From the IMG/VR virus record IMGVR_UViG_3300022751_000034, positions 1 to 34,761 of that record: a stretch of DNA of 34,761 bases; one strand, written 5' to 3'. Both the position numbers and the translations under genes were made by a program. Source of the DNA: a virus. Position 1 is the first letter of the stretch; every line of letters starts with the position of its first letter. Below the pieces are notes generated by a model. The model worked only from the letters and a program-made list of their open reading frames with translations. It was not told where the DNA came from and did no database searches. This document shows positions 31,488 through 34,761 of this stretch, piece after piece.

Positions 31488-31495
31488 TAAATTTG
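31488..31495 (+). promoter_or_regulatory. Host-type -7 box TAAATTTG for leader peptide and tRNA array
   Basis: TAAATTTG matches TANNTTTG, with the leader ATG 4 bases after it (31500). A T-run occupies the -33 position instead of TTTG. It is the best candidate for starting the transcript that carries the leader and tRNA genes. Confidence 0.5.
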
Positions 31496-31499
31496 TAGC

Positions 31500-31571
31500 A
31501 TGAAAAATACAAATCTATTTAGCCTATCCTTATGTTATTCGTTGTTAAGCAACGTTAGGGGACGATATTGA
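31500..31571 (+). CDS. Leader peptide of the tRNA array (23 aa)
   Basis: ATG at 31500 and TGA at 31569-31571. Codons 6-17 read L F S L S L C Y S L L S (CTA TTT AGC CTA TCC TTA, then TGT TAT TCG TTG TTA AGC). They use only the amino acids carried by the seven tRNAs encoded 61 bases after its stop. All seven anticodons have a cognate codon here. The peptide ends N V R G R Y. The 3' part of the reading frame forms hairpin 1:2 (31540-31554) and contributes the antiterminator strand (31554-31561). The start is only 4 bases from the -7 box. I infer a regulatory leader peptide, not a working protein. Confidence 0.6.
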   Translation: MKNTNLFSLSLCYSLLSNVRGRY

Positions 31572-31627
31572 TTTATAAATAATATATTTTAAATTAAACC
31601 CTCTAACTAAAAACTAGAGGGTTTTTT
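31554..31627 (+). terminator. Attenuator: terminator with competing antiterminator
   Basis: The terminator is AAACCCTCTA (31596-31605) with TAGAGGGTTT (31615-31624) and T6. Its 5' arm, extended to CCCTCTAAC (31599-31607), can instead pair with GTTAGGGG (31554-31561) inside the leader reading frame: 8 bp with a one-base bulge. CGTTG (31540-31544) with CAACG (31550-31554) is the upstream alternative. The three pairings are mutually exclusive in the order needed for leader-peptide attenuation. Confidence 0.7.
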
Positions 31628-31631
31628 ATTT

Positions 31632-31707
31632 GCCCATTTTGCGCAATTGGTAGTCGCACCTTACTTAGGATAAGGATATGGTGTTGGTTCGAGTCCAACA
31701 ATGGGTA
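31632..31707 (+). tRNA. tRNA-Leu(UAG), unusual short variable loop
   Basis: Acceptor GCCCATT/AATGGGT (G1-U72 wobble), anticodon stem CCTTA/TAAGG with loop CTTAGGA (anticodon TAG, G37 as expected for CUN readers), T-loop TTCGAGT. The variable loop is only 7 bases, unlike the long arm of normal bacterial tRNA-Leu. No encoded CCA. Identity is from the anticodon only. Confidence 0.75.
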
Positions 31708-31723
31708 CAGTTCTTTTAAATAT

Positions 31724-31804
31724 GCGGTTGTGGTGAAATTGGTAGCACACGTAGGACTTAAAATCCTATGCTTAGGCGTGAGGGTTCAAGTCCCTCCAAC
31801 CGTA
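31724..31804 (+). tRNA. tRNA-Leu(UAA)
   Basis: Acceptor GCGGTTG/CAACCGT, anticodon stem TAGGA/TCCTA with loop CTTAAAA (anticodon TAA), long variable arm TGCTTAGGCGTG, discriminator A. All fit class II tRNA-Leu reading UUA/UUG. Confidence 0.9.
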
Positions 31805-31808
31805 CAAA

Positions 31809-31894
31809 GGAAAGCTAAATTGATAGGTATCAATAGCTGTTTGCTAAACAGTATGCACCCTGTGAGGTGTGGGTTTCGAGTACTCAGTTTTCCG
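31809..31894 (+). tRNA. tRNA-Ser(GCU)
   Basis: Acceptor GGAAAGC/GTTTTCC, anticodon loop TTGCTAA (anticodon GCT), long variable arm, T-loop TTCGAGT, discriminator G as in serine tRNAs. It reads AGC/AGU. Confidence 0.9.
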
Positions 31895-31899
31895 CATAA

Positions 31900-31971
31900 G
31901 CGTTGTTAACATAGTGGTCTATGTGACGGTCTGAAAAACCGTAGATAATGGTTCGATTCCATTACTTCGCT
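31900..31971 (+). tRNA. tRNA-Phe(GAA), imperfect acceptor stem
   Basis: D stem ACAT/ATGT, anticodon stem ACGGT/ACCGT with loop CTGAAAA (anticodon GAA), T arm AATGG-TTCGATT-CCATT. Acceptor GCGTTGT pairs with ACTTCGC with two T-T mismatches (positions 4 and 5), and position 73 is T instead of A. It may be degenerate or need RNA repair. Confidence 0.75.
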
Positions 31972-31975
31972 CAAT

Positions 31976-32046
31976 GGCTAGTAACTCAAATGGATTGAGG
32001 TTTGTCTGCAAAACAAAAGTAGTAAGTTCGATTCTTACATTAGCCT
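31976..32046 (+). tRNA. tRNA-Cys(GCA)
   Basis: Acceptor GGCTAGT/ATTAGCC, anticodon stem TTTGT/ACAAA with loop CTGCAAA (anticodon GCA), discriminator T, the known identity base of tRNA-Cys. It reads UGU/UGC. Confidence 0.9.
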
Positions 32047-32049
32047 CTT

Positions 32050-32132
32050 GGAAGGTAGCGTTCATTGGTGAACATCCAGACTTGAAATCTGGCGCGGCGG
32101 TAAAACGTAGGGTTCGATTCCTATACCTTCCG
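32050..32132 (+). tRNA. tRNA-Ser(UGA)
   Basis: Acceptor GGAAGGT/ACCTTCC, anticodon stem CCAGA/TCTGG with loop CTTGAAA (anticodon TGA), long GC-rich variable arm, discriminator G. Class II serine tRNA reading UCA and related codons. Confidence 0.9.
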
Positions 32133-32137
32133 CAAAT

Positions 32138-32217
32138 TGGAGTGATGGTAATTTGGTAAATCAGCAGACTGTAAATCTGTCGTCTCGGCTAAGTAGGTTC
32201 GATTCCTACCACTCCAA
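32138..32217 (+). tRNA. tRNA-Tyr(GUA)
   Basis: Acceptor TGGAGTG/CACTCCA, anticodon stem GCAGA/TCTGT with loop CTGTAAA (anticodon GTA), long variable arm CGTCTCGGCTAA, discriminator A. It fits bacterial class II tRNA-Tyr. Confidence 0.9.
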
Positions 32218-32237
32218 CTTAAAAATAATCACTAAAA

Positions 32238-34435: not shown

Positions 34436-34516
34436 AGCAATGATGAGCATATTGGTTAGGCTCAACTCCGTTTAAGGAGTCCTGTAAAGTTGTAGGTTCG
34501 ATTCCTGCCATTGCCA
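34436..34516 (+). tRNA. Atypical tRNA-like gene, anticodon uncertain
   Basis: D stem GAGC/GCTC, anticodon stem ACTCC/GGAGT, T arm GTAGG-TTCGATT-CCTGC and acceptor AGCAATG/CATTGCC (first pair A-C mismatched) are clear. The anticodon loop has only six bases (GTTTAA) and the variable loop eleven. With U33 kept, the anticodon would be UUA (a reader of the UAA stop); with another register, UUU (Lys). It may be a degenerate tRNA. Confidence 0.6.
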
Positions 34517-34520
34517 CAAA

Positions 34521-34724
34521 TTGCAAGGTAACGCTAAAGGCGTAAAATGTGATGCGGTATGCCGTTTTACTTCCTATTAGTCTACAATTGACACTTTCCT
34601 CCATGAGGTTTCAAATGATAAGTGTAAGCGTAGATAACTTGCAATATTTCTTTAAATTCGTTTAGGTAATCGGCGGATGAAAAATAAGACTGAGTTAGGC
34701 AATTATACTCAGGAATAGATTACC
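34521..34724 (+). ncRNA. Structured non-coding RNA at the right end
   Basis: TTGCAAG (34521) closes with CTTGCAA (34638) around ACGC/GCGT, GTAAAA/TTTTAC, TCTAC (34581)/GTAGA (34630), ACACTT (34591)/AAGTGT (34620) and the tight hairpin CCTC-CAT-GAGG (34598-34608). A second domain is GGTAATC (34665)/GATTACC (34718) enclosing CTGAGT (34690)/ACTCAG (34707). No open frame fits. The structure probably continues past the window. Large ornate phage RNAs such as GOLLD lie near tRNAs, but I cannot assign this one. Confidence 0.6.
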
Positions 34725-34761
34725 ATGCACTAATGTTGTTTGTAAGTGGAGTCATAAATGT

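Follow-up and report, generated by a model that had tools for sequence, protein, structure and literature searches.

For decades there has been debate over the purpose of phage tRNA genes, with compensation for codon usage on one side and the replacement of tRNAs cut by host defences on the other. The locus described here raises a narrower question, namely whether a phage tRNA array can be controlled by a leader peptide written in the codons of its own tRNAs. The window (the whole stretch of 34,761 nucleotides analyzed) is a 34.8-kb virus record of a deep-branching crAss-like phage; it encodes a crass-type capsid protein together with portal and terminase families, and its terminase has only about 25% identity to known Crassvirales. 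Judging from comparative sequence analysis, we consider it very probable (roughly 0.9) that the leader acts on the tRNA array behind it as a ribosome-mediated transcription attenuator.

Layout of the locus and codons of the leader

The locus, at 31488-32218, consists of a TAnnTTTG box, an ATG opening a 23-codon ORF, an intrinsic terminator and then seven tRNA genes, with the following features:

31488..31495, + strand: promoter-type box TAAATTTG, a -7 box of the Bacteroidota type (TAnnTTTG), read from the sequence; putative promoter function and start site
31500..31571, + strand: leader ORF MKNTNLFSLSLCYSLLSNVRGRY, 23 codons, stop codon at 31569-31571; from the sequence, the homologue in L294/L339 and the in-frame signal across loci
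31515..31544, + strand: control codons 6-15, CTA TTT AGC CTA TCC TTA TGT TAT TCG TTG (L F S L S L C Y S L); from the homologue comparison and the ribosome model
31540..31554, + strand: small 1:2 hairpin CGTTG/CAACG, overlapping segment 2 by one base; role uncertain
31554..31561, + strand: segment 2 (GTTAGGGG), within the last leader codons, antiterminator partner of the terminator 5' arm
31598..31607, + strand: segment 3, the terminator 5' arm (ACCCTCTAAC), common to antiterminator and terminator
31598..31627, + strand: intrinsic terminator (3:4) with T6 tail; from sequence and fold
31632..31708, + strand: tRNA-Leu(UAG); ARAGORN default, Rfam
31724..31805, + strand: tRNA-Leu(UAA); ARAGORN default, Rfam
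31807..31896 (approximate), + strand: tRNA-Ser(GCU); ARAGORN relaxed
31900..31972, + strand: tRNA-Phe(GAA); ARAGORN default, Rfam
31976..32046, + strand: tRNA-Cys(GCA); Rfam, ARAGORN relaxed
32050..32133, + strand: tRNA-Ser(UGA); ARAGORN default
32138..32218, + strand: tRNA-Tyr(GUA); ARAGORN default, Rfam

The 23-codon ORF that an earlier note had placed between a promoter-type box and a terminator was read directly in the sequence. ARAGORN called five tRNAs at default settings, Rfam added tRNA-Cys, and relaxed ARAGORN thresholds recovered all seven, in the order and with the anticodons that had been proposed. Only 4 nt separate the TAAATTTG box from the ATG at 31500, so that the mRNA of the leader probably has little or no 5' untranslated region. 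The terminator ends 4 nt before the first tRNA, thus array transcripts from this promoter must all read through it.

As claimed, codons 6-17 of the leader are confined to the five amino acids that the array serves (Leu, Phe, Ser, Cys and Tyr), and none of the seven tRNAs is without a matching codon there. These five amino acids account for 23% of the residues in the phage's own proteins, a frequency at which a run of 12 is expected by chance with a probability of about 2e-8 (the earlier estimate, for even codon use, was about 4 in 10 million, and its point that such a run is improbable stands). None of 6,097 12-residue stretches in the genes of this phage was composed solely of Leu, Phe, Ser, Cys and Tyr, the longest run being 6, and shuffling the dinucleotides of the ORF 20,000 times never reproduced the 12-residue run.

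One homologue of the array was found, in L294 and L339, which are identical to each other here and 87% identical to the window. Compared with the window, all four of its changes in codons 6-15 are synonymous, and codons 16-20 differ in the amino acids they specify; the changes in its control codons are synonymous third-position or Leu-codon changes. Its small 1:2 hairpin carries a compensatory change (CGTTG/CAACG to CGTTA/TAACG), and its antiterminator is built from other bases, AGAGGG with CCCTCT as judged by eye. The array was absent from relatives (73% terminase identity) having a comparable sequenced region, and therefore it is not conserved across the whole lineage; most other terminase relatives were fragments. 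Searches by means of the HD protein returned distant relatives only, and those with the left-neighbour gene returned none. Neither the leader peptide nor the leader DNA had a homologue among 50,697 phage records, where matches were promoter-like only, and neither the exact leader word nor a leader-shaped pattern gave a match in viral contigs. Several candidates were discarded: cr108_1 has a promoter match ahead of a tRNA-Asn but its leader is not Asn-rich, LR745206 has a promoter match only, and the feature tables of FpV4, cr115_1 and cr3_1 contain no comparable array.

Elsewhere in the window, a degenerate tRNA-like gene (34436-34516; 22 bits, below the Rfam threshold) lies where relatives have one or two tRNAs. 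Behind the KTSC-domain gene comes a tRNA or tRNA-like gene, and then a stretch (34517-34761) with a pairing of the ATTGCAAG...CTTGCAAT type; this stretch, also found in two relatives (L113 and L114, 73% terminase identity), has no Rfam match and is possibly a conserved structured RNA.

RNA structures and the position of the ribosome

In the terminator hairpin, 31598-31605 pairs with 31615-31622 (-10.4 kcal/mol), with the T6 tract at 31622-31627; a generic terminator scan missed it because its loop of 9 exceeds the limit of the scan. The 2:3 antiterminator is formed by 31554-31558 with 31603-31607 and 31559-31561 with 31599-31601, leaving one bulge, and the 1:2 stem by 31540-31544 with 31550-31554, base 31554 being the only one common to both. 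The earlier note described the three stems as mutually exclusive, which was borne out for 2:3 against 3:4 and had to be given up for 1:2 against 2:3, since the predicted fold of the naked window RNA holds both. A 1:2 stem that protects by excluding 2:3 when no ribosome is present was thus not found in the window. With the antiterminator present in naked RNA, the default without a ribosome may be read-through; across loci, an antiterminator of 4 or more pairs was predicted in the naked RNA of 21 of 48. Protector stems 1:2 are known from trp and are absent from some attenuators, and the missing exclusive protector is not essential to the ribosome-stall logic.

The effect of a ribosome was modelled assuming free RNA from 13 nt past the A site. 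In silico, the leader RNA of the window folds into the full antiterminator with A-site codons up to 14, into a partial one at codon 15 and into essentially none from codon 16; under the same 13-nt assumption, segment 2 is free with the ribosome at the control codons and covered with the ribosome at the stop codon. Hence the control run first proposed as codons 6-17 is shortened by this model: codons up to 14 are predicted to be effective and codon 15 marginal, codons 16 and 17 coming too late.

Leaders and arrays across viruses and bacterial chromosomes

Viral contigs were searched with a pattern holding no codon content, made up of a tRNA T-loop, a T-run and a promoter box, to which an ATG at 4 nt was later added; the leader was taken from the first ATG after the box, with the spacing fixed at 4 in the final scan. 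Leader ORF, terminator and tRNA array were present together in 56 of the 65 viral matches of the last scan, and 52 of these 56 showed a codon match (at least 40% of core codons), figures that apply only to loci with the searched spacing. The same box, at a spacing of 2-10 nt, lies upstream of most other leaders. Leaders are 15-28 codons long across 48 distinct loci, the stop codon lies 19-28 nt from the terminator in nearly all of them, and a module measures about 130 nt. As examples, arrays EYQFH, ELLWCR, YNQEF and PQHR have leaders reading MKTQNQYEHFFNYSS..., MNKLRTLLERCLWLE..., MKTNQSYQFNFNHE... and MKTIKNNIQHLPQR..., respectively. Some leaders contain codons outside their array, in part because some arrays are truncated where the contig stops or some tRNAs escaped detection.

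Covariation between leader codons and array content, which the earlier note had suggested looking for, was observed between phages as well as between modules within one phage. The same note had named as contrary evidence homologous arrays whose leaders lack matching codons or the alternative stems; instead, homologous and unrelated arrays alike have leaders, with the antiterminator complementarity kept in different sequences.

For the statistical analysis, near-identical leaders were removed and arrays were permuted among the remaining 48 distinct leaders in 20,000 trials. The fraction of core codons belonging to the own array was 65% vs 41% permuted, coverage was 93% vs 63%, and in small arrays 97.5% of the amino acids were present in their own leader vs 63%; for each measure, 0 of 20,000 permutations did as well. 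The association was strongest for His, Gln, Pro and Trp, the values for single amino acids being W 2e-7, H 7e-8, Q 1e-7, P 2e-7, R 1e-5, F 2e-5, C 5e-5 and Y 7e-5. The signal was confined to the reading frame of the ORF (0.585 vs 0.311), the remaining frames lying at null, and within that frame to codons 7-14; both earlier codons (1-6) and later ones (from 15) were near null. Where the array has only Arg(ACG), Arg in the control region is encoded by 17 CGN and 0 AGR codons, compared with 1387:2339 in genes of the same loci (p 5e-8), and leaders whose array has only Leu(UAG) use CTN in a ratio of 12:3; leaders therefore tend to track the encoded isoacceptor, beyond the amino acid. Isoacceptor matching was not seen for Ser codons across leaders.

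The RNA structures were compared across the same loci. The 3' end of the leader pairs with its own terminator arm at -13.0 kcal/mol, compared with -8.5 (sd 0.34) when arms are swapped. For a ribosome placed at codon 10, the antiterminator is predicted in 47 of 48 loci, a number that drops to 24 when the spacers are shuffled; once the ribosome is well past codon 15 or near the stop, it is predicted in few loci or none. Codon matching disappears at the same codon position as the antiterminator.

Large arrays are composed of two to four modules, each with a leader, a terminator and a set of tRNAs. In L243, the leader of set WFC contains TFCWF, that of KVRMGEMIA contains IRIIAMVGGTEK, that of PDNTQH contains TNNHTTNQPNPQD and that of LLYS contains SLYSYLYLSLS. 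Over 11 arrays with 27 modules, 75% (0.746) of leader codons 4-18 fell in the own tRNA set vs 10% (0.103) in the other modules of the same phage; about seven of these 27 leaders, missed by the box-plus-ATG rule, were picked from ORFs that stop ahead of the terminator, two of them having a hand-chosen GTG start, and modules lacking a plausible leader, such as two in L176, were excluded. The true assignment of leaders to sets was the best one in 11 of 11 arrays. This comparison, being made within each phage, removes phage-wide composition as a cause.

Within a module, the tRNAs tend to be alike in the first letter of the codons they read (U: Phe, Leu, Ser, Tyr, Cys, Trp; C: Pro, Gln, His, Arg, Leu), which could reflect a modification at position 37 that they have in common, or nucleases that target them together. 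On a 152-kb contig (L008, 16560-18600), a leader ending in ...ITILVLCLLSSVVLL is followed by Cys and Val tRNAs and later by one more Val and four Leu tRNAs; box and ATG are farther apart here (31 nt).

The cultured Cellulophaga phage phi17:2 (KC821609) has three modules. Set PEQHLLR lies behind MKIQRLHLQELEQPIISGGTGV, set YSSNWF behind MKTNYCTYNNSNWSFSY..., and the second tRNA set of this phage is preceded by the annotated gene gp077. In all likelihood, this 'hypothetical protein' (L423 10443-10562; KC821609 88442-88561) has no function as a protein and represents the leader of the second module. A few chromosomes of Bacteroidota/Chitinophagaceae carry one module, with tRNA-Trp, tRNA-Phe or mixed arrays; two from Chitinophaga (L412 4129-4654 and L381 6162-6459) have five and three tandem tRNA-Trp genes, respectively, behind the leader SYSNSWSWC with its two Trp codons, adjoining gldB and NAD synthase, possibly a host use of the same switch. 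The idea that the module is common in bacterial chromosomes was rejected, as the pattern with the searched spacing occurred in 3 of 299 Chitinophagaceae and 1 of 395 class members. Since modules are present in cultured phi17:2 and in a few bacterial chromosomes, experiments are feasible now.

Proposed mechanism, alternatives and known systems

Architecture, codon-to-array match, reading frame, position and antiterminator are all evident from the comparison of sequences. The reading put forward in the earlier note, a leader of cognate codons controlling the array, is supported by codon covariation, by the kept antiterminator and by the position of the matching codons; the locus has a short ORF between promoter and terminator, control codons for the product of the operon, and mutually exclusive 2:3 and 3:4 pairings. 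Indirect signs that the leader may be translated are the synonymous nature of the changes in its control codons and the restriction of the signal to one frame. In the proposed mechanism, the transcript would start at the ATG or immediately upstream of it, with a ribosome trailing the polymerase; to get through codons 6-15, this ribosome would require precisely the tRNAs that the array encodes. With charged tRNAs plentiful, the ribosome would reach the stop codon and cover segment 2, the terminator would form and the array would be off; with any one of them scarce, it would stall at codons up to about 14, leaving segment 2 to pair with the terminator 5' arm, and read-through would allow the tRNAs to be made. 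This would amount to a negative feedback delivering tRNA supply on demand. We infer that read-through changes in this manner in the cell, the natural signal presumably being tRNA shortage during infection, caused by turnover of the host's tRNAs, by heavy demand or by defences that cut tRNAs. As the product is tRNA, its shortage would be a more sensible signal than that of an amino acid, and host defences destroying tRNAs (PMC10264068, PMC11555353) would be a fitting source of it. As a counterpoint, stalling by plain amino-acid starvation would also turn the array on, though extra tRNA would be no help.

That signal is the core of one alternative, in which the leader senses amino-acid starvation by responding to charging and the tRNAs serve otherwise, e.g. 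by competing for scarce amino acids or resetting host translation. The anatomy is the same as in the trp, his, leu and phe attenuators and Ser codons do not follow the isoacceptor, as this alternative would have it; nevertheless what is produced is tRNA rather than an enzyme, the codons for Arg and Leu do follow the encoded isoacceptor and the module sets track the tRNAs in detail, so we hold it to be unlikely, with some weight left to it. A mere timing device, coupling transcription to translation to delay or limit the tRNAs with no sensing, has in its favour that terminator and leader alone could set a low basal level; it leaves the codon-tRNA match, and its limit to codons before 15, unexplained, and we think it very improbable.

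Equally slight is the probability we assign to direct, T-box-like sensing, with uncharged tRNAs binding the triplets and no ribosome taking part. Triplets matching the anticodons would serve that purpose too, yet they are in frame with an ATG 4 nt after the box, the stop lies at a fixed distance from the terminator, and the changes in the homologue are of the synonymous third-position or Leu-codon kind; moreover, no T-box stem I specifier or T-box sequence was found at the locus, where only tRNA families, and no other Rfam family, scored above threshold. Chance or composition would require a T-rich stretch yielding Leu, Phe, Ser, Tyr and Cys codons ahead of an array that happens to read T-first codons. 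Most of the seven window tRNAs do read such codons and many arrays are grouped by first codon letter, but wholly different sets (PQHR, YNQEF, EYQFH, PDNTQH, KVRMGEMIA) also have matching leaders, and the permutation, frame and within-phage module tests exclude chance, to which we give next to no credence.

If the leader is an attenuator of its own tRNA array, the phage would regulate each set of tRNAs by its own shortage, which bears on the reason why phages carry them, and the leaders would name the tRNAs expected to run short. Such compact multi-codon modules can be tested with reporters, and could be used as biosensors of tRNA supply or to find new arrays. More tentatively, and with somewhat less than even odds, they may constitute a general phage tRNA-rescue system, in which leader-gated modules replace, set by set, tRNAs that the host destroys (anticodon nucleases, retron/PARIS-type defences) or undersupplies.

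Phage tRNAs acting against tRNA-cutting defences are described in PMC11555353 and PMC10264068, T5 tRNA-Tyr against retron-Eco7 and tRNA-Lys against PrrC. These anti-defence arrays are alike in that phage-encoded tRNAs replace lost host tRNAs; in the system of PMC11555353, a strong promoter drives the tRNA, and PMC10264068 does not mention a leader peptide or attenuation. T-box riboswitches resemble the present modules in sensing tRNA status to control tRNA-related genes, but they work without a ribosome, and no T-box or specifier structure is present here.

Leader-peptide attenuation is known for amino-acid operons (trp, his, leu, thr, ilv) and for a synthetase operon (pheST). No description of attenuated tRNA genes was found in the open-licence literature, prior work elsewhere being possible, so that leader-peptide attenuation of tRNA genes by way of the codons which those tRNAs read, with modules arranged in tandem, appears to be new. 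The modules share with the trp, his, leu, thr, ilv and pheST attenuators a short, putatively translated ORF with control codons, an arm common to antiterminator and terminator, and a stop codon placed so that the terminating ribosome would cover segment 2. Unlike in amino-acid operons, the start codon lies directly behind the promoter box, the 1:2 protector is weak or not exclusive, one to about ten amino acids are addressed at once, several modules may stand in series and the system is phage-borne; above all, the controlled genes are tRNA genes and the control codons are those of the tRNAs themselves.
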